From the NCBI GenBank assembly GCA_017651315.1, contig JAGCDE010000012.1, positions 1 to 38,325 of the forward strand: a stretch of 38,325 bases of DNA, read 5' to 3'. A program made the translations under genes and the position numbers. The notes below the pieces were generated by a model. That model did not search any database. It saw only the letters and a list, made by a program, of their open reading frames with translations, and was not told the origin of the DNA. The DNA comes from Bacteroidaceae bacterium. Lineage in GTDB: Bacteria; Bacteroidota; Bacteroidia; Bacteroidales; Bacteroidaceae. How positions within the stretch are numbered: position 1 is the stretch's first letter; each line of letters begins with the position of its first letter. Shown here piece after piece: positions 11,785 through 22,248 of the stretch.

Positions 11785-13020
11785 ATGGAGAGATTTCTTG
11801 CAAAAAGACTTTACGGTCAGGAGGATGCGGCCAGGGGTGGCTCACGTCCTGCCATAATCATTGCAAAGGCAGGCATAGCTCTCGGATTGGCGGTCATGAT
11901 AGTGGCCATGGCCGTGACGCGGGGATTCAAGGGTGAGATACGCGGCAAGGTTACCGATTTTTCCCAACATATAAGAGTTTCAAACTACAGGACGGGCAGC
12001 GGTGTGATAGAGATTCCTGTGACTTGCACGGACTCGGTTCTGGATGCGTTGCAGGAGTGCCCTGATATAGTGCATGTGCAGCGTTATATTGACAAGCCGT
12101 GCATAGTCCGTACGGACACTCTTTTCCAGGGTCTGATACTGAAAGGTATAGGCAGTGAGTATGACCGCAGTTTCTATGAGAAATATATGGTTATGGGGGG
12201 ATTCCCGGAGCTTGCCGATTCAACGGACACCTGGATTGTCCTGTCACGGCCTCTCGCTCTCCGGCTCGGTCTCGATGTGGGTGACAGGGCCGATGTCTAT
12301 TTCATGCAGGAGCGGATACGTATGCGACGCATGACCGTGACCGGAATTTTCGAGACGAATTTCTCGGACTATGACAACCATCACGGGATTGCCGACCGTA
12401 CCCTGTTGCAGAGGCTGAACGGATGGAACGGGGATGAATGCAGCGGGATTGAGCTGAGGCTCGTCAAGGCCGATGATATGGAGCGTGCGTACCTCCATGT
12501 GACCAAGGTGATGAACAAGTGGGGGGAGGATATGGGCGAACAGTACCTGGTGCAGACCATGAATGACATGAACACGGGACTATTCGCATGGCTTGATGTC
12601 CTGGACCTCAATGTCTGGATAATCCTCGCCCTGATGTCAGGCATTGCAGGCTTCACTATGATTTCCGGCTTGCTGATAATCATATTCGAACGCACTTCGA
12701 CCATAGGGATACTCAAGGCCATCGGCGCATCGGACGGGACCGTACGCAAGGTTTTCCTCAGACTCGCCTCGTTCATCATCATAAAGGGAATGGTTATCGG
12801 CAATCTTATCGGGATTGGCCTGTGTGTTATTCAGAAACTGTTCAGGATAGTGCCTCTTGATCCGGCGAACTACTATCTTGACTGCGTGCCGATACATATC
12901 GGAGTGGGGTGGCTTGTGCTCCTCAATGCGGTCATGTTCACGCTCTCCATGCTTATGATGCTTGTTCCGTGCATGGTTATTTCAAGAATTGTTCCTTCCA
13001 GGACGATACGGTTCGAATAA
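11785..13020 (+). CDS. LolC/LolE-like (FtsX-family) ABC transporter permease
   Basis: With the start at 11785 (MERFLAKRLYGQEDAARGG) the protein has 411 residues. It has the LolC/E architecture: one N-terminal membrane helix (IIIAKAGIALGLAVMIVAMA), a long periplasmic MacB/PCD-type domain (~45-265), and three C-terminal helices of the FtsX domain (IILALMSGIAGFTMISGLLI, then an IGILKAIGASDGTVRKVFL coupling segment, then IIIKGMVIGNLIGIGLCVI and a final helix). Such permeases pair with a LolD-type ATPase to move lipoproteins or other cargo out of the inner membrane. No ATPase gene is adjacent. A longer frame from 11722 overlaps the GH2 start and the promoter and is rejected. tRNA-Ala follows 32 bp downstream. 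Confidence 0.9.
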   Translation: MERFLAKRLYGQEDAARGGSRPAIIIAKAGIALGLAVMIVAMAVTRGFKGEIRGKVTDFSQHIRVSNYRTGSGVIEIPVTCTDSVLDALQECPDIVHVQRYIDKPCIVRTDTLFQGLILKGIGSEYDRSFYEKYMVMGGFPELADSTDTWIVLSRPLALRLGLDVGDRADVYFMQERIRMRRMTVTGIFETNFSDYDNHHGIADRTLLQRLNGWNGDECSGIELRLVKADDMERAYLHVTKVMNKWGEDMGEQYLVQTMNDMNTGLFAWLDVLDLNVWIILALMSGIAGFTMISGLLIIIFERTSTIGILKAIGASDGTVRKVFLRLASFIIIKGMVIGNLIGIGLCVIQKLFRIVPLDPANYYLDCVPIHIGVGWLVLLNAVMFTLSMLMMLVPCMVISRIVPSRTIRFE

Positions 13021-13052
13021 AAGCGTTAACTTAGCGCCGTCAACATAAATAT

Positions 13053-13125
13053 GGGGTATTAGCTCAGTTGGTAGAGCACTTGGTTCGCAATCAAGCGGTC
13101 ATCGGTTCGAATCCGATATGCTCCA
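13053..13125 (+). tRNA. tRNA-Ala (anticodon CGC)
   Basis: The 73-nt sequence folds into a full cloverleaf: acceptor GGGGTAT/ATGCTCC, D-stem GCTC/GAGC, anticodon stem CTTGG/TCAAG (with one G-U pair at 31-39), and T-arm ATCGG-TTCGAAT-CCGAT. The anticodon loop TTCGCAA gives anticodon CGC, which reads GCG. The acceptor contains the G3-U70 pair that identifies alanine tRNAs. CCA is not encoded; the discriminator base A is followed by CAGG. A weak -7 box (TAACTTAG) lies at about 13028-13035, so the gene may have its own promoter or be read from the permease transcript. Confidence 0.95.
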
Positions 13126-13168
13126 CAGGGGAAGGGCTGCATTGGCAGCCCTTCCCCTGTGGAGCATA
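13117..13168 (+). repeat. Perfect 24-bp inverted repeat overlapping the 3' end of tRNA-Ala
   Basis: The arm at 13117-13140 starts inside the tRNA (3' acceptor strand and end of the T-stem). It is perfectly complementary to 13145-13168 across a 4-nt loop (ATTG). The part beyond the tRNA looks like a strong post-tRNA hairpin. A further short hairpin at 13161-13176 is followed by TTTT, so the block may terminate tRNA transcription. Confidence 0.85.
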
Positions 13169-13281
13169 AATGCTTCTTTTAGTTCGCTCCGCGAACGGGC
13201 GTCCTCCGTCCGCTCTCGCTCGTTTCCTCGCTCGCCCCAAATGGTCCGCAACGGCTCGTGGAGCATGAATGCTTCCTTTTT
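13159..13281. repeat. Direct repeat pair flanking a structured GC-rich spacer
   Basis: GTGGAGCATAAATGCTTC at 13159-13176 recurs as GTGGAGCATGAATGCTTC at 13258-13275, 99 bp apart, both followed by T-runs. The second copy touches the stop codon of the minus-strand kinase gene. The spacer holds a perfect hairpin GTTCGC-TCC-GCGAAC (13182-13196) and GGGCG/CGCCC arms (13197-13201 and 13233-13237). No gene is visible in the spacer. Confidence 0.7.
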
Positions 13282-14110
13282 ACAAAAGTGATGACAGGGC
13301 GGCACGGAACTCGGGCATGGGACATTTTGTGTCACGCTCCACTATAAGGGTCTTGAGTCCGGCGTATGGGCGTATCTCCTCGTCAATGTCACTGAGCGGG
13401 CGGTCATGACCGAAATAAGCCGGCGCGAAATTCCGCCAGAACTCTATGGCAAGGGACTTGGGCATGTGGAAGGTCTCCCTGATGAAACTTTCATCGCTCA
13501 GGCAGCAGCACAGATAGACCATTCCCACATCGAACAGGTTGAATCCGTAGCAGAAATCGCCAAGGTCTATGAAATAACGGTCTGTACCGCTGAAGATGGC
13601 GTTGCTGTACTGGAGGTCGCCGTGGATGGCTGTATCGGTGTCGGGGGCATCGGCGATGAAACGTGCCAGGCGGTCTTTCTGCGGAGTGCTGAAGAAAGGA
13701 TTGTCGGCGAGCAGACGGTAGTAGCGGTCCTTGACGCACTCGAACTGTCCGGTATCCACGTGGATGGCGTGGAGCTTGAGGCATAATCCGGCGAATTCCT
13801 CGGCGTACTGTCCTACAAGTTCAGGATGGTCGCCGGTGGCGCGGGAATAGGATTTCTTTCCGCGGATGCGGTGGAAACGGATGCCGTAGCGGCCATCCTC
13901 AGTCACCACATAGTCACCCGGTTCCGGGGTGGGGATGCCCAGGTCATAGACCTTGCGTGCCAGGATCATCTCGTCAAGCGGCTGCTGTACCTTGCCCGGG
14001 AAATAGAGCTTGAGCATAATGTCCGGGTCGGTACGGTGATCATAGCTCTCGCCATTGGCTCCGCCTCCCGAAAGCACGTAGTCGCTGAGTGAAATCCTGA
14101 CGGCGTTCAT
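13280..14110 (-). CDS. APH/choline-kinase-like phosphotransferase
   Basis: The 276-residue protein has the protein-kinase-like fold of aminoglycoside and small-molecule kinases. It shows a glycine-rich N-terminal loop (LSGGGANGES, 13-22), a candidate ATP-binding lysine in IMLKLYF (K34), the catalytic loop HGDLQYSNAI (H163, D165, N170) and the metal-binding IDLGDF (D182/D185). It resembles the group of bacterial kinases called TIGR02172, whose substrate is unknown. It is the last gene of the seven-gene operon and its ATG overlaps the stop of the HD hydrolase gene (ATGA). That suggests translational coupling and a role in the same pathway. Its substrate could be a metabolite or an RNA, as some kin-like enzymes phosphorylate unexpected targets, but nothing in the sequence decides this. 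Confidence 0.85.
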   Translation of the reverse strand: MNAVRISLSDYVLSGGGANGESYDHRTDPDIMLKLYFPGKVQQPLDEMILARKVYDLGIPTPEPGDYVVTEDGRYGIRFHRIRGKKSYSRATGDHPELVGQYAEEFAGLCLKLHAIHVDTGQFECVKDRYYRLLADNPFFSTPQKDRLARFIADAPDTDTAIHGDLQYSNAIFSGTDRYFIDLGDFCYGFNLFDVGMVYLCCCLSDESFIRETFHMPKSLAIEFWRNFAPAYFGHDRPLSDIDEEIRPYAGLKTLIVERDTKCPMPEFRAALSSLL

Positions 14111-14691
14111 ACCTTATTGACGAAAACCCTGTTAATGAGCCATTCGAACTCCTGAAAGGCGAAGGTGTCATCCAGTTCCCGGAGAGAGTCCGCCAGACCG
14201 CGGTAGTGCCATTCGTGCTCCTTGGGATCGTGCACACGGAATATGCTCCAGAGAGCATCGCCTTTGATGTAATGGTCTCTTGCTATGGCCCGCATGTTTG
14301 AGAGCTTGTCGCCCATGGCCACAATCTTGGCATCCCTCGGGACTTTTGCGAGCCTTTCTATCGCGGCCTGCTTGCGGTCATGCCAGCTCTCCTCCTCGGA
14401 ACGGCCTTCGATGACTATGTCGGTCTCGAAAGAGACAAGCGAAGCCACCCTCTCACCGAACTCGGAACGAATCTGCTCTATGGTGATATCGGTGTCCTCG
14501 ACTGTGTCATGCAGTGCGGCGGCAGCCAGTATCTCCTGGTCGGATGTTATGGTGGCTGCAATAGCGACAGCCTCCATGGGATGTACTATGTACGGGAATC
14601 CTTTGCCGCGCCTTTCGGTGCCGGTGTGGGCCTTGACAGCAAAGAGTATAGCCCTGTCTAAAAATGTGGTGTCAAGCGGAGCGTTTGCCAT
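14107..14691 (-). CDS. HD-domain (p)ppGpp hydrolase, MESH1/SpoT-hydrolase-like small alarmone hydrolase
   Basis: The 194-residue protein consists of a single RSH-type HD hydrolase domain. Key residues are KAHTGTERRGKGFPYIVHP (H22, H37), the ALHDTVEDT motif (H61, D62, E65, D66) and AMGDKLSNM (the second metal/base-binding segment, equivalent to ADRLHN in SpoT). Family members remove the 3'-diphosphate of (p)ppGpp in a Mn-dependent reaction. Some act on NADPH or on pyrophosphorylated tRNA. It lies 4 nt after the synthetase gene and overlaps the kinase gene by 4 nt. Synthetase and hydrolase thus appear as two separate proteins of one operon rather than one bifunctional Rel. The activity itself is inferred. 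Confidence 0.88.
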   Translation of the reverse strand: MANAPLDTTFLDRAILFAVKAHTGTERRGKGFPYIVHPMEAVAIAATITSDQEILAAAALHDTVEDTDITIEQIRSEFGERVASLVSFETDIVIEGRSEEESWHDRKQAAIERLAKVPRDAKIVAMGDKLSNMRAIARDHYIKGDALWSIFRVHDPKEHEWHYRGLADSLRELDDTFAFQEFEWLINRVFVNKV

Positions 14692-14695
14692 TTCT

Positions 14696-15772
14696 TCAGT
14701 TTGATGTGTTCATGAACGGAAGGTCCCTGGATTGCTCAAGGAGCATCTCTGCAATCATGTCGTTGCTCTCGGACTCACCGTTCAGGAGGTCGAACATATA
14801 TTTGATTCCGGCCCTGCCGCCTCCGTTCTTCAGTATGTAGGCGATACACAGGTCCTGCGGTCCTATGGAGGACGAAATGATGTCAAGGTCGGTCAGGCCT
14901 ATCTGGTAGCAGGCAATCTGGTAGGCTCCTTCGGAAAAGACCTTTATCAGGTTTGAGATATCGCCTAAGGTCTTGAATCCGATTCCCTTGAAGACCGCGA
15001 GATAGGGCATGAGGGAGACATCCTGTATCTCGGCCTGGTTCATGGATGCGATGCGCCTGTTGAGCTGGTTGAAGGGCCCAAGTTCCAGATAGCTGCGGAA
15101 AGTGTCACCGTCAATGGCCACCTCATCCAGATTGCCTGAACGCACCAGTGCCTGAACGCGGCGACGGTAGTCGGTGAGTTCTATGCGTATCTTGCTGAAC
15201 TCGTCATCCACCAGCTCCAGCATACCGGCCAAACGGCTCATGTTGCGCATGTAACGCTTGGGAATCTCCACTCCCGACTTGTAGCCTGTGTCATGGTCCA
15301 TATTGGCCCAGGCGTGCTGAAGGAGAGTACGCATCTGTATCTCAAAACGGTACGGGAAATCCGGCACCGAGCAGATATAGTGCAGAGAGAGATAGCCGAA
15401 ACTGTCAATCTCGTGTATCTTGCGCTTGTCTATGGAGTTCTCCCAGTCTATGGTGAACAGGCGTTCTACAGCCGATGCCACCTTATCCACATCGTCAATG
15501 TAGAATGTTATGACACGGAGGCCAAGGATATCGGTCAGGTCGGCCAGACTCCTGTATTTATGGCCTTTCAGCTCAAGCTTGCCTGCCAGTGAGTCGTATG
15601 CCTTGACACGTGACTCAAGGGCGGCGACAAGCAGTCCTGCATCGGCAAAGGTTTTTCTCAGTCTCTCCTTTACCTCCTGTTCGACCTCACAGAACCGTGG
15701 CCGGTTGTCCTGATACTCCTGGAGTATGGCCTCGCAGTGCGGATCCAGATGTCTTGTCCTTGACATTGACAC
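14696..15772 (-). CDS. RelA/SpoT-domain nucleotide pyrophosphokinase with C-terminal extension
   Basis: This 358-residue protein has the alarmone synthetase fold in residues ~25-200: SRVKAYDSL (54-62), the DILGLR motif (81-86), SFGYLSLHY (124-132, usual GYQSIH), the catalytic EIQMRT (144-149) and LQHAWANMDHDTGYK (151-165). These indicate pyrophosphate transfer from ATP to GDP/GTP, or to tRNA 3' ends as in toxic members of the group. It has no HD domain and no TGS/ACT regulatory region. A ~150-residue C-terminal extension (GPFNQLNRRIASMNQAEIQD onward) has no family I recognise and is unusual compared with ~210-260-residue small alarmone synthetases. The start could also be the ATG two codons on. 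It sits 36 nt after the STAS gene and directly before the hydrolase gene. Confidence 0.88.
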   Translation of the reverse strand: MSMSRTRHLDPHCEAILQEYQDNRPRFCEVEQEVKERLRKTFADAGLLVAALESRVKAYDSLAGKLELKGHKYRSLADLTDILGLRVITFYIDDVDKVASAVERLFTIDWENSIDKRKIHEIDSFGYLSLHYICSVPDFPYRFEIQMRTLLQHAWANMDHDTGYKSGVEIPKRYMRNMSRLAGMLELVDDEFSKIRIELTDYRRRVQALVRSGNLDEVAIDGDTFRSYLELGPFNQLNRRIASMNQAEIQDVSLMPYLAVFKGIGFKTLGDISNLIKVFSEGAYQIACYQIGLTDLDIISSSIGPQDLCIAYILKNGGGRAGIKYMFDLLNGESESNDMIAEMLLEQSRDLPFMNTSN

Positions 15773-15808
15773 AAATTTTTTACTAGCAAACCGGACGTGT
15801 ATCGCCTG

Positions 15809-16114
15809 TCAGTCCCGGATCTCGAACAGGTTCAGGAAACCGGTCATCATGAATACCGAGCGGATCTCGTTGTTGATGGCCTTGACTATCACATTGCCTC
15901 CCTTGGATGCGGCGGCCTTGCGAAGCGAGAGGAACAGACGGAGACCGGAACTGGATATGTACTCCAGCTCAGTGCAGTCAAGGATGACAGTGCCTGCGGC
16001 ATAATTCATCAGATTGTCGAAATCACCGCTTATCTCCTGTGAGGCGGGGGTATCCAAACGTCCTATCAGCTGTGCTGTAGTGACTGTGTCCTGTGTGTTG
16101 ATTTTTACTTCCAT
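15809..16114 (-). CDS. STAS-domain anti-sigma factor antagonist-like protein (RsbV/SpoIIAA type)
   Basis: The 101-residue protein is a single STAS domain: TAQLIGRLDTPASQEI near the N-terminus, then VILDCTELEYISSSGLRLFLSLRKAAA. The ISSSG segment (residues 53-57) corresponds to the DSSG/DSTG site at which SpoIIAA and RsbV are phosphorylated. The aspartate is replaced by serine, but serines remain available. In partner switching, the unphosphorylated STAS protein sequesters a kinase/anti-sigma factor. A matching kinase and phosphatase are both encoded in one protein two genes upstream, and the natural inference is that this is their substrate. The final output partner is not visible. Confidence 0.92.
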   Translation of the reverse strand: MEVKINTQDTVTTAQLIGRLDTPASQEISGDFDNLMNYAAGTVILDCTELEYISSSGLRLFLSLRKAAASKGGNVIVKAINNEIRSVFMMTGFLNLFEIRD

Positions 16115-16134
16115 ATTGTTTTGTTTAAGATTGT

Positions 16135-17643
16135 TCAGTCGTCGGTGTCTCCAAGCAGGATAACGAGCCGGTCACCTGTCATGAGCTTCATGCTGCCGTG
16201 AGGCACCAGGTATTTCGGACCGCGCCGCACCATTATCACACGGATGCCATGTGGCAGATGCAGGTCGCGTAGGGTCTCTCCACGGGTGAGGTCCTCATCG
16301 GAGACTATGTGGTCACGAAGTATCCCCATCTCCTCGGGAATCTCCATGCCGAATGTCTCCACATCGGGGTCGTCGTCTATGCTCATGTTGAGCAGATGAG
16401 CCATGGGGGAGAGCGTCATGCCCTGCAGCAGAAGGGACAGGAGCGTGATGAAGAACACTATGTTGAATATCTCGTTAGAGCCATCCACTCCTTCAATAAC
16501 GGTGTAAAGGGCAAACAGGATAGGTCCCGCACCCTTGAGTCCCACCCATGATGCCAGGAGCTTGGCCCTGAACGACAGTCCTCTGAACGGCAGCAGGCTG
16601 AGCATGATGCCTGCAGGACGTGCTATCAGCATGATGAACAACCCAATGAGCAATGCGGGCCATATCACAAAGTGCATCTGCGACGGTCTGGCGAGGAGGC
16701 CCAGCAGAAGGAACATTATGAGTTGCGAGAGCCATGTTATACCGTCGAAGAACAACAGCACATCCTTCTTGCAGGGCAGGTCCTTTGTGTTACCTATGAT
16801 TATGGCGGTTATGTAGAGTGCCAGCAGGCCGTTGCCTCCGATGTACGAAGCCGCTCCGTTGGAGAAGAGGGCTATGCTGAGGATCATGATGGAGTAGAGA
16901 GGGCTGTTCTGGAGCTTTATCTTGATAAGGAGCCATCTGGCCCCGTGTCCTATGGCCATACCGATACCGAAGCCCAGTGCTATCTGCTTGGTCAGTATCC
17001 AGCTTCCGGTAAGGATGATGTGCCACAGGCCGGACGCTTCCGGGGCGGTGTTAACCGTACCCATGATCTGGACGATGAAGATGGTAAGCACGTAAGCCAT
17101 GGGGTCGTTGCTTCCCGATTCCAGCTCCAGCATAGGGCCGAGATTCTCGCGAAGGGAGAGACGGCGGGTCCGGAGTATGGAGAACACCGATGCCGAATCG
17201 GTGGATGACAGGACGGAAGCAAGGAGGAAACATCCCATAAGTGTCTTGCCTGCACCGCCTATCTTGTCGCCTAACACATAGAAAATGAAGAAACCGGTGA
17301 CGATGATGGTGATGAAGACCCCCACTGTTGACATGGTAATACCTTTCTTTATAATGGGACGGGTATCGGCAAGCGATGTCTCGAGACCACCGGAAAGCAG
17401 GATGATGGTCATGGAGAGATGACCAAGGAATTCCGCCGCATGGAGATTCTCTATCTTGATACCTAATCCGTCCTCACCGGCCAGCATTCCGATTATCAGG
17501 AACAGCAGCATGGTGGGGACACCGAACCTGGTCCCTATCTTGGTCACAAGAATGGCGATGGACATGAGGATGGAGATCAGGAGGATGAGGTTTCCCGATG
17601 AGAGGTCTATGCTGAATATGGACAGTGGTGTAAGGATGGTCAT
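16135..17643 (-). CDS. K+(Na+)/H+ antiporter, NhaP2/CvrA type with RCK_C domain
   Basis: The 502-residue protein has about 12-13 membrane segments of the CPA1 fold, including TMSTVGVFITIIVTGFFIFY, SSTDSASVFSILRTRR and LELESGSNDPMAYVLTIFIV (the ND-containing ion-binding region). The C-terminal ~75 residues (ETLRDLHLPHGIRVIMVRRG ... MTGDRLVILLGD) form a TrkA_C/RCK_C ligand-binding domain, typical of the K+/H+ antiporter CvrA/NhaP2. It would exchange K+ or Na+ for protons across the inner membrane, possibly gated by a nucleotide bound at RCK_C. Its gene starts one base after the stop codon of the phosphatase/kinase gene, so the two are translationally coupled. The placement between sensor and STAS genes suggests ion homeostasis is part of the same response. 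Confidence 0.93.
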   Translation of the reverse strand: MTILTPLSIFSIDLSSGNLILLISILMSIAILVTKIGTRFGVPTMLLFLIIGMLAGEDGLGIKIENLHAAEFLGHLSMTIILLSGGLETSLADTRPIIKKGITMSTVGVFITIIVTGFFIFYVLGDKIGGAGKTLMGCFLLASVLSSTDSASVFSILRTRRLSLRENLGPMLELESGSNDPMAYVLTIFIVQIMGTVNTAPEASGLWHIILTGSWILTKQIALGFGIGMAIGHGARWLLIKIKLQNSPLYSIMILSIALFSNGAASYIGGNGLLALYITAIIIGNTKDLPCKKDVLLFFDGITWLSQLIMFLLLGLLARPSQMHFVIWPALLIGLFIMLIARPAGIMLSLLPFRGLSFRAKLLASWVGLKGAGPILFALYTVIEGVDGSNEIFNIVFFITLLSLLLQGMTLSPMAHLLNMSIDDDPDVETFGMEIPEEMGILRDHIVSDEDLTRGETLRDLHLPHGIRVIMVRRGPKYLVPHGSMKLMTGDRLVILLGDTDD

Positions 17644-17644
17644 C

Positions 17645-20011
17645 TCAGGATTCGGTTGTCATTTTCTTTATCAGTGTAAGAATGTTGTGGCCGTCGGCAC
17701 GCTCATAGTTGACATGATCCATGATCTGGCGTATCAGATGTATGCCTAAGCCTCCTATCGAACGGTCTTCGGCGCTCAGAGTGATATCAACCTCAGCCTT
17801 GGCTGTTGGGTCGAAAGGCTTTCCGGTGTCGCTTATCACGAACGACACCTCCTTGCCGTTTGACTTGGCTTCGACAGTGATGTCGCCCTTGGTTCCGGCC
17901 GGATAGGCGTAGTTCATGACATTGACCACAGCCTCCTCGATGGCCAGGTTGATCTGCATTATGGATGCCATGTCGAATCCGTTGGCCTCGCATACCTCGT
18001 CAATGAAGGTATTCAGTCTTGGGACACGTTTGATATCGTTCGTCAGGGTCAGGCTGCGCTGGTAGGTTATATTCTCGTTATGCTTGGTATATTGTACGGC
18101 CAGCATGGTGAGGTCGTCGCTCTGGTCGGCTTCGCCTACGAAGGCATGGACTTCATCGGTCATGCGGTCGATTATGGTGAGGGGAGTGAATATGCGCTTG
18201 CCCTGCAGTTCAAGCGCAGTCTCCTTGATCCGTGACATTCCGAATTGCCTGTGCTCAATGTCTTCGGCCTCGGTCAGACCGTCTGTATAGAGGAATATTG
18301 TGGTGTCAGGGTCAATCATGGTCTCCTGGACGCTGAACTTCCATCCGGGCATGACTCCGACCGGAAGGTTGGAATCGACGGGAAGCATTCCGGCACCTGT
18401 GTTTCCTATCAGCATGGGTGCGTCATGACCGGCATTGGTGTAATGAAGCCGTCCGGTGGGAAGATCCAACGCACCGACGAACAGGGTTACGAACATGTTC
18501 GATTCGTTGTCCTCGGCCATGGCGTCATTGATTCTGGATATTATCCTGTCGGGAGAGGCTTCGTGGGCCGATATGGTCCTGAACTGTGCTTTGGTCACAG
18601 CCATGACGAGAGATGCGGGCACACCCTTGCCCGATACGTCGCCTATGCAGAAGAAGAGCTTTTCGTCGCGTATATAGAAGTCGAACAGGTCACCGCCGAC
18701 CTCCTTGGCAGGGGTAAGGCGTCCGAATACGTCGATGTCATCCCGGTCAGGGAAGGGCGGGAAGATCTTGGGCAGCATGGAACGCTGTATGCCGCTCGCC
18801 ACCGCAAGCTCTCCCTGGATGCGTCCTTTCTGCTCATTGGCCATCTTGAGTTCCTCCATCTGCCGGACGATGGACTGCTGCATGTTCCGGAAGGAGTTGT
18901 TCAATTGTCCTATCTCGTCATTATTCTCCGATTCAGGCAGCTCCTCGTCAAACTGTCCCGATGCAATGGTTTCCGCCTGGTAGGCAAGATTCTCGAGCGG
19001 TTCCAGCTGTTTTGTTATGATACTGCTGAATATCATAAGCATAAGCAGTAAACCGACCACCACTATCCCGAAGATGGAGTTTATCAGACGGTAGTAACCG
19101 CTGAAGATGTCTTTGGCAGGGCAGACTATGCCTACGCTCCAGCCTGTATCCTTGATAGGCTTGAAGAACACATAGCTGTCATTCCCGTCAACTTCAAGTT
19201 CGTGCACTCCCTCCTCCCCGGCCTGCATGGCGTGGCCGAGACTGATCATGGCTGTGTCAGGTTCCAGGAGTGACGGGGTGAATATGGTCTGATAGAAAAG
19301 CTTGGTTGAGTCGGGGTGGACGAAGAATGTACCTCCCTGACCGATCATTATGCTGTATGAGTTGGGATACGGTTTGACAGCTGATATGGTTTGGGACAGC
19401 CACCTCAGGGAGAGATCTACCGAGAAGGTGCCGATGAATGTCCCTTCATCATCCTTGAGAGGCTTACAATAGGAAATTATCATCTCCGGCGAGCAGATGT
19501 CATCGGGGTTGAAATCGGAAAATGGCTCGGTCCAGCATGGCCTGTCCAGAAGCTTGGGCAGCTGATACCAGTCCAGAGACCAGTACTGGTAATGGTCATT
19601 GCCCTCCTGGGTGGTAAGTATGGTGCCGTTGTCATTGAATGAATAGGCCGAGAAATACAATCCCTTATTCTTGAAGAAGTACGGTTCGAATGCGATGGAG
19701 CAGCCGTTCAGGTTGGGGTTGTTCTTGAGGATCTGGCGGCTATAGACCAGCATTGAGTCCGGGTCGTCCAGATGTCTTGAGACCAGCCAGTCCATGTTTT
19801 CAGCGGCAACTGTCACTTCGGTCATGATGGTGTTGATGTGCTGGATGGTGTTGTCGAGTATCAGAGAGGCGTTCTTTATGGCTTCTTTCTGTACGGCTAA
19901 CCTTGATTCATTGAAGAACAGACCTAATGCGGCGAGGAAGATAAGTCCTGAAAACAAGACAATCCAGAGACTTATTTTAGTGGAGAGTGACTTCTGTTTC
20001 TTTTTTCCCAT
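17645..20011 (-). CDS. Membrane sensor with SpoIIE/RsbU phosphatase and RsbW-like kinase domains
   Basis: The 788-residue protein combines several modules. TM1 is at ~12-30 (LWIVLFSGLIFLAALGLFF), followed by a dCache-like periplasmic sensor (~35-300). TM2 is at ~306-328 (IFGIVVVGLLLMLMIFSSII), followed by HAMP and coiled-coil (~330-410). A PP2C/SpoIIE phosphatase domain comes next (~415-640: EVGGDLFDFY, FFCIGDVSGKGVPASL, FLYTDGLTEAED). The C-terminal GHKL ATPase (~650-785) has an N-box (LAIEEAVVNVMNYAY) and G-boxes (ISDTGKPFD, GGLGIHLIRQIMDH), like RsbW/SpoIIAB. Phosphatase and kinase for a STAS protein are therefore fused in one receptor. The start is the ATG at 20011 (MGKKKQKSLS), 13 nt after the binding-protein stop. 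A TTG at 20035 would overlap that gene and is rejected. Confidence 0.92.
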   Translation of the reverse strand: MGKKKQKSLSTKISLWIVLFSGLIFLAALGLFFNESRLAVQKEAIKNASLILDNTIQHINTIMTEVTVAAENMDWLVSRHLDDPDSMLVYSRQILKNNPNLNGCSIAFEPYFFKNKGLYFSAYSFNDNGTILTTQEGNDHYQYWSLDWYQLPKLLDRPCWTEPFSDFNPDDICSPEMIISYCKPLKDDEGTFIGTFSVDLSLRWLSQTISAVKPYPNSYSIMIGQGGTFFVHPDSTKLFYQTIFTPSLLEPDTAMISLGHAMQAGEEGVHELEVDGNDSYVFFKPIKDTGWSVGIVCPAKDIFSGYYRLINSIFGIVVVGLLLMLMIFSSIITKQLEPLENLAYQAETIASGQFDEELPESENNDEIGQLNNSFRNMQQSIVRQMEELKMANEQKGRIQGELAVASGIQRSMLPKIFPPFPDRDDIDVFGRLTPAKEVGGDLFDFYIRDEKLFFCIGDVSGKGVPASLVMAVTKAQFRTISAHEASPDRIISRINDAMAEDNESNMFVTLFVGALDLPTGRLHYTNAGHDAPMLIGNTGAGMLPVDSNLPVGVMPGWKFSVQETMIDPDTTIFLYTDGLTEAEDIEHRQFGMSRIKETALELQGKRIFTPLTIIDRMTDEVHAFVGEADQSDDLTMLAVQYTKHNENITYQRSLTLTNDIKRVPRLNTFIDEVCEANGFDMASIMQINLAIEEAVVNVMNYAYPAGTKGDITVEAKSNGKEVSFVISDTGKPFDPTAKAEVDITLSAEDRSIGGLGIHLIRQIMDHVNYERADGHNILTLIKKMTTES

Positions 20012-20024
20012 AATAGCCTTCGGA

Positions 20025-20966
20025 TTATTTGTCAATTATCTCATCGTATGTCACTTGACGGCTGAGCATGCCGTTCTCATACATAAGCTGGCAGGCTTTT
20101 TCCACCATGTCGGGACGGAGACGGAATTCGTACTCCTTTGACTCCCTGTCAACCATCAGCCTGAGCACCTCCTCCAGCATAAGTTTCTGAAGCACCCTGT
20201 TGGTGGCGATATGCTCCCTTTCAACATAGTCCATGACTATCTCCAGGGTCTCGTCCTGGTTCTGCACCGCCCATTCCCAGCCCTTACGGCTTGCCTCGGC
20301 GAATCTGCGGGCCTGGTCCTTATGCTTCACGTAATACTCCTTTGTCATATAGACTCCGTCTTCCTGGATGTTGTAGCCGTGGTCACGGAACCGATAGACA
20401 TTGTTTTCCTCTATTTCTATACCGGTCTGGAGCAACTGGTAATATTCGTTGTAACTCATGGCCAGTGTGGCGTCGATGGCACCCGAGATGAACAGGTTTA
20501 TATTGGAGGCGAAAGGAACCCAGCGGTAGCCGAGATTGTCCTTGATGCTCATGCAGATTGCTATCTGGCTGAAGCCGGCGTTCCAGATCCCTACTTTCTC
20601 GCCGGTCTGTTCAAGCGGGTTCTTGTCTCTGCGGGAGACTATGACCATGGCGTTGTTCATGGATGTCTGTAGAATGTTTACGAGCGGAACGCCGTCATCG
20701 ATTATCTCCATGGCTTGAGCAAGTGGAAGTGTGGTGGCATGGCTCTCATTGTTCTGGATGCGGTTGAGCGAAGACTGGGTGAGGGAAGGATGGACAATCT
20801 CCACATCCAGTCCTGCATCTTTATAGAACCCCTTCTCCTTGGCTACATAGTATCCTGCAAATTGTGCCTGGGCAGTCCACTGTGGCGTGAAAACCATCTT
20901 GTCCTGCGCCTGGCAGACTGTACAGATGACGGCGCACAATGCTACCGCTAAGGATTGTCTGTTCAT
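20025..20966 (-). CDS. Periplasmic NMT1/THI5-like substrate-binding protein (probable sensor partner)
   Basis: With the ATG at 20966 (MNRQSLAVALCAVICTVCQA, signal peptidase I site before QDK) the protein has 313 residues. FTPQWTAQAQFAGYYVAKEK, GFYKDAGLDVEI and the later GAIDATLAMSYNEYYQL are hallmarks of the NMT1/THI5 family of ABC-type binding proteins, which bind pyrimidine-like or sulfonate-like ligands. No permease or ATPase gene is adjacent. Instead it is the first gene of the operon whose next product is a periplasm-facing sensor. I infer that it presents a ligand to the dCache domain rather than feeding a transporter. The frame extends to 21032, but the signal peptide and a -7 box place the start at 20966. 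Confidence 0.88.
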   Translation of the reverse strand: MNRQSLAVALCAVICTVCQAQDKMVFTPQWTAQAQFAGYYVAKEKGFYKDAGLDVEIVHPSLTQSSLNRIQNNESHATTLPLAQAMEIIDDGVPLVNILQTSMNNAMVIVSRRDKNPLEQTGEKVGIWNAGFSQIAICMSIKDNLGYRWVPFASNINLFISGAIDATLAMSYNEYYQLLQTGIEIEENNVYRFRDHGYNIQEDGVYMTKEYYVKHKDQARRFAEASRKGWEWAVQNQDETLEIVMDYVEREHIATNRVLQKLMLEEVLRLMVDRESKEYEFRLRPDMVEKACQLMYENGMLSRQVTYDEIIDK

Positions 20967-20995
20967 AGAATTGTTGTCACAGGTTAATTTATCTG

Positions 20996-21003
20996 CAAAA
21001 ATA
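20996..21003 (-). promoter_or_regulatory. -7 box of the seven-gene signalling operon
   Basis: On the minus strand TATTTTTG fits TAnnTTTG, about 30 bases upstream of the ATG at 20966. Immediately upstream on the same strand is AACAGATTC, a motif that recurs in several gaps of this window. Confidence 0.6.
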
Positions 21004-21187
21004 ATAAGAATCTGTTTAAAATTGTTTCCCAAAACTACTTAAAGCCCTTTTTTCCTTCTGTTTTTATCGCCCCGCATTCAAAAACAGGTTCTTGGAATCT
21101 GTTCTCACGATGGCCGGTATTGTGACAAATAGGGGTTTTCCTACCGTTTTTTAGGGATAAACCGTGGCGTGGGTGAAAATCCTCCAT

Positions 21188-21195
21188 TATTTTTG
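21188..21195 (+). promoter_or_regulatory. -7 box of the hypothetical barrel-protein gene
   Basis: TATTTTTG followed by CATC fits the -7 consensus, 19 bases before the ATG at 21214. A four-codon reading frame (ATG at 21203, MRER) ends in TGA overlapping that ATG. Confidence 0.6.
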
Positions 21196-21213
21196 CATCA
21201 AAATGCGTGAAAG

Positions 21214-22248
21214 ATGAGAAACGTTTCTGTTTTAGTGCTGGTGTTTTTCTTTTCACTGTCGGCAGCCGCGAGGGAAAAGAGCAACATACAGGTCTGGGGT
21301 GAAGTCAATGCCGCAGCTGACGGCAACAGTTATCTGACAATGTACAAGAACTGTCCTGCCGAAGTGACCGTCCAGTTCCATTTCGTGTACAGGGACAAGT
21401 CGAACTCAGTGAAATATGAACTGGTGATGGCGGACACTGTCGCGGCGGTGCGGGATCCGGTGCCGGTTGAGAAACCTGTGAAGGAGGTGGTTGTCGATAA
21501 GGCTATATACAGCAGTGTGCGCGACAACGGTGAGATATACCGCACGGAGAACCCTGATGACCCGATATTGGCAATGCTGCTGGTGGACCTGTTCGACCTG
21601 TATCACGACATATTCTGGTTTGACGCCATGCACAGGGCGCATTATTATAAAGACCGTAGATATGAAAACTGGAATCCGGTTTCCGGCCGCTCCAGGCAGA
21701 ACCGCGGCCAGTCCACCTCTCCGGATATTGACCTTGACAAACTGGATGACACCGCTCTGCTTGTGGGAGTGGCGGCTGTGGCGGTGGCATCGGCAGGTAT
21801 GCTTGTCGCTGTCGCCGACAGGTGGAACATAAAGGACGGCCGTTTTCCCTATTTTTCGTTCTCCTCCCAGGTGCAGTTCTATTGCGAGACCGGCAATGTG
21901 CGCGATGTCGTTGAGTTCAGATACAGGGGAGGGAACTCGGGCGGTTTCTCATTGATGGGCGACTTGGGCTACTGTTCAGGCTCCCTTAACCGTCCCGACC
22001 TGTTTGACAGGCGTTTCACCTGGAGCGTGGGTGCCGGTCTGGATCTCGGGGCATTCTCCCTCCAGTTCCATTACAAGCCGTCAACCGGCATTCACACGGA
22101 GAACTTCATGAACGTCCAGTTGGGATATGATATCTTTGTCCTGAAGAATCTTGCCCTTGACTTGAGGGCCGGAGCGGGCGTCTTTGAATATGACGGCGAC
22201 CTCTATGCCGACTATCCTCTTTCCGTAGGTTTGCTCTGGAAGTTCTGA
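21214..22248 (+). CDS. Unknown secreted protein, probably with a C-terminal outer-membrane barrel
   Basis: I do not recognise a named family for this 344-residue protein. It has a signal peptide (MRNVSVLVLVFFFSLSAAA, then REKS). An N-terminal part (~20-95) looks beta-rich. Residues ~95-190 are polar and aromatic (DLYHDIFWFDAMHRAHYYKD) and are followed by a hydrophobic, alanine/valine-rich helix (~192-212, VGVAAVAVASAGMLVAVADR). The final ~130 residues show alternating amphipathic strands rich in Y, F and G and end in LLWKF. A terminal phenylalanine is typical of outer-membrane beta-barrel proteins. The gene is monocistronic, divergent from the signalling operon, and convergent with lysA. Its last 11 bases form a hairpin with the end of lysA. 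Confidence 0.75.
   Translation: MRNVSVLVLVFFFSLSAAAREKSNIQVWGEVNAAADGNSYLTMYKNCPAEVTVQFHFVYRDKSNSVKYELVMADTVAAVRDPVPVEKPVKEVVVDKAIYSSVRDNGEIYRTENPDDPILAMLLVDLFDLYHDIFWFDAMHRAHYYKDRRYENWNPVSGRSRQNRGQSTSPDIDLDKLDDTALLVGVAAVAVASAGMLVAVADRWNIKDGRFPYFSFSSQVQFYCETGNVRDVVEFRYRGGNSGGFSLMGDLGYCSGSLNRPDLFDRRFTWSVGAGLDLGAFSLQFHYKPSTGIHTENFMNVQLGYDIFVLKNLALDLRAGAGVFEYDGDLYADYPLSVGLLWKF

Follow-up and report, generated by a model that had tools for sequence, protein, structure and literature searches.

Partner Switches and the Window Locus

Alarmone synthetases are known to be regulated through the ribosome, by allostery, at the level of transcription and by binding proteins. Here, we describe a block of seven genes in a 38,325-nucleotide stretch of DNA from a Bacteroidaceae bacterium (GCA_017651315.1, contig JAGCDE010000012.1; the whole stretch is called the window), in which a serine-phosphorylation partner switch is encoded together with, and probably controls, a set of alarmone enzymes. 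The closest described systems are SiaABCD of Pseudomonas aeruginosa, HsbD/HsbA, and BgrR/BgrV of Sinorhizobium, in which a phosphatase, a kinase, a STAS-like protein and a messenger synthetase are co-transcribed; the STAS-type proteins control the diguanylate cyclases SiaD, HsbD and BgrR, the unphosphorylated form activates the messenger enzyme, and the stalk of SiaD receives SiaC (PMC8457831). The features of the window locus, in order of transcription and with the promoter candidate last, are as follows (aa, amino acids).

P, 20025..20966, minus strand: NMT1/THI5-type periplasmic binding protein of 313 aa with an apparent signal peptide (Pfam NMT1, 105.8 bits)
R, 17645..20011, minus strand: receptor with dCache, HAMP, SpoIIE (PP2C) and GHKL (RsbW-type kinase) domains in one protein (Pfam dCache_1, HAMP, SpoIIE, HATPase_c_2)
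A, 16135..17643, minus strand: predicted CvrA-type K+/H+ antiporter of the CPA1 class (Pfam Na_H_Exchanger and C-terminal TrkA_C, that is, RCK_C)
T, 15809..16114, minus strand: stand-alone STAS protein (PF01740 and TIGR00377, both over cut-off)
S, 14696..15772, minus strand: predicted single-domain alarmone synthetase (RelA_SpoT PF04607, 68.9 bits)
H, 14107..14691, minus strand: predicted HD_4 small alarmone hydrolase (SAH) of the MESH1/SAH type (PF13328, 72.6 bits)
K, 13280..14110, minus strand: kinase of the APH/choline-kinase fold (Pfam APH; TIGR02172-like)
Two TAnnTTTG boxes, 20996..21037, minus strand: upstream of P, a weak candidate for the operon promoter

As in SiaABCD, phosphatase, kinase, STAS protein and messenger enzyme are encoded together in the window, and the HAMP-phosphatase part of R gives a match to the SiaA model, though one under the cut-off (76 of 700 bits, NCBIfam). 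The enzyme of the Sia, Hsb and Bgr systems is a GGDEF diguanylate cyclase, whereas that of the window has a RelA_SpoT domain; therefore, the window set is not a member of that group. Further differences from SiaABCD are the union of kinase and phosphatase in one protein and the additional genes for a hydrolase, for an APH-like kinase and, often, for a transporter. The Bacillus switches RsbU-RsbW-RsbV and SpoIIE-SpoIIAB-SpoIIAA have in common with the window set a PP2C phosphatase, a GHKL kinase and a STAS protein with a conserved serine, but the window set has no sigma factor, and its PP2C and GHKL domains are fused to a dCache sensor. SypE-SypA of Vibrio fischeri resembles the window set in having serine kinase and phosphatase in one protein and a lone STAS protein as output (PMC8256260, PMC10120452), although SypE, unlike R, is a multi-domain response regulator (PMC3610818), and the accessible parts of these three texts mention no alarmone enzyme. 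Serine switches in which the STAS output is no known sigma factor have already been described (PMC8256260).

Like S and H, RelQ/RelP and the Tde-SAS and Tde-SAH proteins of Treponema denticola represent single-domain synthetases and a separate small hydrolase, and the C-terminal regulatory (TPR) domain of Tde-SAS brakes catalysis; S also has a C-terminal domain, predicted to be helical. The Treponema genes bear different locus numbers (TDE1711 and TDE1690), whereas those of S and H adjoin, and the accessible main text of that paper contains no match for STAS, SpoIIE or operon (PMC10434055). The first-pass annotation knew of no description of the seven genes as one system, and none was found in open PMC text: titles and abstract starts there, in a library that leaves out most subscription papers and all bioRxiv preprints, yielded no STAS- or SpoIIE-controlled alarmone synthetase. 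This suggests that, while a partner switch acting on a diguanylate cyclase is already known, one acting on an alarmone synthetase is absent from that open literature.

The Gene Block and Its Switch Proteins

Seven open reading frames (ORFs), all on the minus strand and with catalytic residues intact, fill positions 13280-20966 in the order P-R-A-T-S-H-K. The spacings are 13 (P-R), 1 (R-A), 20 (A-T), 36 (T-S), 4 (S-H) and -4 nucleotides (nt; H-K), and ORFs, Pfam and NCBIfam confirm the first-pass description of seven minus-strand genes whose spacings range between a 4-nt overlap and 36 nt. The start of R is more likely the ATG at 20011 than the listed TTG at 20035; for S, family alignment favors the ATG at 15766 over the GTG at 15772, which would make the T-S spacing 42 nt.

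The three parts of a partner switch, a PP2C phosphatase, an RsbW-type GHKL kinase and a STAS protein with a phosphorylatable serine, are all present with intact residues, in agreement with the earlier assignment to an RsbU/RsbW/RsbV switch. In residue counts here and below, R proteins of <600 aa, H of <180 or >229 aa, K of <260 aa, S of <330 aa and T of <95 aa are excluded. In the PP2C domain of R (PF07228, 158 bits), D441, D444, D458, D577, D632 and D633, some of which we take to bind metal, are conserved in 65/65 rows, as are E692, E693, N697, D728, G730, G754 and G756 in its GHKL domain (PF13581, 93.9 bits). T scores above the cut-off of the anti-sigma factor antagonist model TIGR00377 (62.6 vs. 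53.45 bits, NCBIfam), and its S55, the predicted phosphorylation site, is conserved in 72/72. All four domains named for the receptor by the first-pass annotation occur in the window R; in Pfam scans of 35 R proteins, however, SpoIIE, dCache_1 and HATPase_c_2 are found in 35/35 and HAMP in 4/35 only. In six related loci (L130, L134, L137, L237, L239 and L240), the GHKL domain is not joined to PP2C as it is in the window but forms a small protein by itself.

The proposal that the switch works without a sigma factor stands in part. Pfam and NCBIfam identify no sigma factor among the seven proteins, sigma factors elsewhere in the genome not having been tested. In the window's genome, which is 83% complete, the only HATPase_c_2 (RsbW-type GHKL) match lies in R, and the two STAS matches are T, the only free STAS protein, and a sulfate permease; a hidden RsbW-sigma pair is therefore unlikely. 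P is present in 12/80 of the loci introduced below and is also found in P-R-T modules without S, and the seven genes include no ABC transporter gene. By this distribution, P is an accessory sensor part.

Conservation among Related Loci

S was used in a scan of one genome per species, and the best 80 of 182 relatives were analyzed. By title, they are uncultured Bacteroidales, Bacteroidaceae, Prevotellaceae or Bacteroidia, most of them from ruminants. None of these 80 titles names Bacteroides, the genus in which, according to the first-pass annotation, part of the gene order may be conserved. R is encoded in 74 of the 80 loci, H in 76, K in 72, T in 71, A in 44 and P in 12. The clustered genes always lie on one strand, and the 363 gaps within clusters have a median of 10 nt, with 334 of ≤60 nt; the clustering is therefore more than chance.

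Flanking sequence of at least 5.5 kb is available to either side in 59 loci, and the complete set of S, H, K, R and T is found in 53 of these. When loci sharing at least two flanking gene families are counted as one context, these 59 fall into 25 flank contexts, 22 of which hold the complete core. The gene-neighborhood comparison thus revealed conserved content but not conserved order of the seven genes: 25 order strings, some cut by contig ends, were seen in the 80 loci, including P-R-A-T-S-H-K (the window type), K-P-R-A-T-S-H, S-R-A-T-H-K, S-H-K-R-T(-A) and A-R-T-S-H-K. Order was rejected as a measure of conservation because orders are permuted while content is kept. Likewise, S, H, K, R and T form the core of what had been taken as a set of seven, with P accessory (12/80) and A exchangeable (44/80). 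Distance correlations between S and its partners (T 0.77, A 0.72, H 0.50, R 0.46, K 0.44) were not used, being inseparable from species relatedness. A TPR-GerE (LuxR-type) protein is encoded shortly upstream of S in L062, L068, L070, L075 and L077 (L077:1200-2510, Pfam), a possible transcriptional link.

Even Genome Samples and Control Loci

Because the 80 loci had been found through S, even genome samples were drawn. In the sample of the order, S (E ≤1e-60) occurs in 9/393 genomes, from six genera of six families, and R and T adjoin it in 7/9. All eight of these genomes besides the window's own carry R or an R-like SpoIIE protein, as do 18/18 distinct S genomes of both samples (10 of the family, including the window's own, and eight more of the order). 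Among 101 genomes of the family, strong S is found in 10, K likewise in 10, and R in 34, which include every S genome (p 7e-6 by genome). K at E <1e-40, a cut chosen after the list was seen, is found in seven genomes, each of which also carries S (p 7e-9 by genome; 4/4 genera, p 4e-5), and of all 10 K genomes eight have S. These p values treat genomes or genera as independent. Apart from the window locus, the family sample has nine S loci: T and/or R lie beside S in L136, L137, L139 and L142, and not in L138, L140, L141, L143 and L144 (contig end).

As a control, 40 loci at other GHKL matches of the order (S-linked places excluded) were inspected, and 0/40 show a synthetase; 20 of them belong to a different, low-scoring GHKL class, leaving the other 20 as the informative ones. 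P-R-T or R-T modules are present among these 40 loci. In our reading, P-R-T may be a switch of wider use, and some lineages would have acquired S-H-K in addition to it. Among loci L175-L214, dCache-SpoIIE-(GHKL) and STAS proteins form modules that are often accompanied by an NMT1 protein and have no synthetase adjoining (e.g., L176, L177, L179, L196 and L200), and a second class of lone GHKL proteins (~132 aa) lies beside ORFs of ~140 and 625 aa (L184, L187, L205 and similar).

Synthetase S and Hydrolase H

S consists of a catalytic domain (residues ~45-205) and a helical C-terminal domain (~212-357). PF04607 is the sole domain found in the window S, which has no hydrolase, TGS or ACT domains of a long RelA/SpoT homolog. 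R55, K57, S61, K65, D81, R86, Y127, H131 and E144 are conserved in 83/83 and R148 in 82/83; they align to RelQ-type enzymes (PDB 3l9d/2be3), and their presumed roles are in catalysis. In H, the HD, ED and DxxxN residues H37, H61, D62, E65, D66, D128 and N132 are conserved in 76/76, and its relatives in PDB are SAH, MESH1 and Rel hydrolases. The assignment of the pair as RelA-type and MESH1-type enzymes thus holds at the level of sequence (PF04607, PF13328, conserved catalytic residues). S may be a (p)ppGpp-type alarmone synthetase, as predicted, with adenosine or tRNA products also possible.

The AlphaFold model of S (mean predicted local distance difference test score, pLDDT, 84.1; predicted template modeling score, pTM, 0.53) shows, beside the catalytic domain, a helical C-terminal domain most of which is predicted well. 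It matches Rel and SAS1 synthetase domains, and the match spans end by residue ~201; no new fold is claimed for the C-terminal domain, as it was neither predicted nor searched alone. A profile of residues 212-357 matches 12/12 S-family members and 0/25 other synthetases in the loci tested, the catalytic domains of the latter scoring 27-172 bits. By analogy with the SiaD stalk, which receives SiaC, this domain is a candidate docking site for T.

Kinase K and Gene Fusions

K scores just under the cut-off of TIGR02172 (213.6 vs. 228.2 bits) and is therefore filed as TIGR02172-like; the H-K fusion of L130 passes with 236.1. A K profile has no match among PDB sequences at E 0.001, and the APH/choline-kinase fold names no substrate. 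A role in antibiotic resistance was rejected as unsupported, since members of the K family are inherited together with S and occur as fusions to H or STAS. Single proteins that join H to K are encoded in L130 (469 aa) and L142 (470 aa), and profile matches place three more in G576, G730 and G729 (the last of another family); an H-S protein of 562 aa occurs in L140, and STAS-K proteins occur in L217 (397 aa, immediately preceding R-T) and L234 (396 aa). These fusions to H and to STAS make K part of the system, and by the sequence evidence K, present in 72/80 loci, is a core member of the gene set, a role that the first-pass annotation, though right about the APH-like kinase, had not emphasized.

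Two more K paralogues lie outside the operon in the same genome (G000 C10:6827-7705 and C38:372-1232). In 10/80 loci, a gene for a cytidylate-kinase-like protein of ~215 aa shortly precedes S or separates S from H (L063:8360-9004, Pfam PF13189; between S and H in L058 and L067; L138); its product is possibly a further nucleotide enzyme of the pathway. Y_phosphatase3 recurs beside T, H, H-K or K, some cases by Pfam and some by profile (L139:7658-8473, L142:12165-12989, L217:12213-13013, L215:7715-8551, L224, L238 and L075), and adjoins a K paralogue in the window's own genome (G000 C10); it may oppose K.

Transcription and Surroundings

TAnnTTTG, which we take to be the Bacteroidota -7 motif, occurs on the minus strand of 13000-21400 only twice, in boxes that lie directly upstream of P and start at 21037 and 21003. 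Chance alone would give about two in 8.4 kb, and a script scan found no TTTG 17-24 nt before either box; they are therefore weak support for a single transcript. Scans for sigma-70 promoters (11 found vs. 7.3, standard deviation 3.3, in shuffles) and for terminators (10 vs. 6.4, standard deviation 2.6) gave little excess and were uninformative, and Rfam at gathering threshold gave nothing beyond one tRNA. A tRNA-Ala gene (anticodon cgc) is located at 13053-13126 (+), beyond the operon 3' end, and a short palindrome, GGAGCAT..ATGCTTC, occurs in two copies between it and the operon (13150-13280).

A Proposed Circuit and Its Alternatives

It is highly probable that the gene set is functionally associated. 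With more modest confidence, we favor a SiaABCD-like circuit with an alarmone output, in which the partner switch would control the cycle formed by S, H and K. A periplasmic ligand, perhaps delivered here by P, would bind the dCache domain of R and change the relative activity of the two enzymes that R itself contains, the PP2C phosphatase and the GHKL serine kinase, and this ratio would set the phosphorylation of T at S55. Unphosphorylated T would bind S, probably via the C-terminal domain, and turn it on, a direction that is borrowed from SiaC-SiaD. H would reset the alarmone pool, K would act in the same pathway on some substrate, and the transporter (here the K+/H+ antiporter with RCK_C) might be co-controlled by T or by the nucleotide.

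Several points weigh against this circuit. The parts, their intact residues, their co-inheritance and the fusions are read directly from sequence, whereas we infer the direction of the switch, the product of S, the substrate of K and the control of the transporter, as well as the T-S contact and the activity of S. The canonical output of an unphosphorylated STAS protein is the GHKL kinase, not an enzyme (PMC8256260). At least one of H, K, R and T is absent from six fully flanked loci (L030, L035, L037, L041, L057 and L073). In the order sample, G101 and G676, of one genus, have S-H in one place and R elsewhere; the fetched R locus of G101 holds P-R-T together. In the family sample, T and/or R adjoin S in only 5/10 S genomes (the window's own, G465, G510, G474 and G508), S lying apart in G462, G455, G521 and G503 and at a contig end in G447, where the R match covers the SpoIIE part only. 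At genus level, the co-occurrence of S with R reaches only p ~0.04. In addition, 24/34 R genomes of the family sample are without strong S; R-T and P-R-T exist there without S, indicating that T has other targets in those genomes. Finally, a distant synthetase in L134 is without the C-terminal domain of S, yet the order there is transporter-T-GHKL-synthetase, which makes docking at that domain less likely but leaves the T-synthetase link intact.

The same parts could constitute a self-contained, hitherto undescribed nucleotide-signaling pathway: phosphorylation of the STAS protein in response to an extracytoplasmic ligand would gate the synthetase via its C-terminal domain, and the dedicated hydrolase and the APH-fold kinase, sometimes with the cytidylate-kinase-like enzyme and Y_phosphatase3, would process or read a messenger that is perhaps not ppGpp, the exchangeable ion transporter being an effector. 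We regard this version as possible but doubtful.

A serious rival, though one that we consider unlikely, is that the transporter and not S is the direct target, such that T phosphorylation sets the activity of the antiporter (or of SLC13, NhaC or Na/Pi proteins) and S, H and K follow the ion state. The annotation of A as a CvrA-type antiporter with RCK_C was correct: it passes the potassium/proton antiporter model NF003716 (486.1 bits vs. a cut-off of 355, NCBIfam; ion specificity predicted) and has TrkA_C. A is found in 44/80 loci, and its place is held elsewhere by Na/Pi-PhoU proteins (L130 by Pfam; L237, L239 and the S-less L204 by profile), by SLC13/CitMHS proteins with TrkA_C (L134, L220 and L226 by Pfam; L222, L225, L227 and L230 by profile) or by the NhaC type (L139 by Pfam; L144 by profile); judged from these loci, A occupies an exchangeable transporter slot. 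The seriousness of the rival comes from R-SLC13-T arrangements without S nearby. R-transporter-T without S nearby is seen in six fetched loci (L220, L222, L225, L226, L227 and L230), three of them from S-less genomes (G449, G498 and G458), which suggests that the transporter may be an older output of the switch. A also lies between R and T in the window clade, A and the scanned SLC13 proteins carry TrkA_C, and STAS domains form part of SulP transporters (PMC8256260). However, A is missing from 36/80 loci (24/59 of the fully flanked), in 29 of which T and S are both present; the transporter family varies while S, H and K stay; and none of the fusions seen, which join H, S, K and STAS, includes a transporter.

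It is improbable that S is instead a toxic synthetase (a tRNA or adenosine pyrophosphokinase) neutralized by H or by its own C-terminal domain and serving as a switch-triggered stress or defense effector. The better matches of S are ordinary synthetases (SAS1/RelQ, SAS2/RelP and long Rel), S is stably co-inherited with a full sensory system, and the six window proteins other than S have no PADLOC match, the flanking genes not having been scanned for defense or antitoxins. That the genes are only co-transcribed neighbors with no biochemical coupling, as the shuffled order and the separation of single genes in some genomes might suggest, is very improbable given their retention over 22 flank contexts, the fusions and the near-confinement of K to S genomes.

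Implications

Control of the alarmone cycle by the partner switch thus remains the reading that we favor, and the fusions and the S-specific C-terminal domain make it testable with few purified proteins. If it is correct, a ligand-sensing serine-phosphorylation switch would set the growth brake straight from an outside cue, and the principle of a STAS-controlled messenger would extend from cyclic di-GMP (c-di-GMP) to alarmones. A target would be provided for the sigma-less partner switches of Bacteroidota and a pathway for the K kinase family, and alarmone state would be linked to ion transport.

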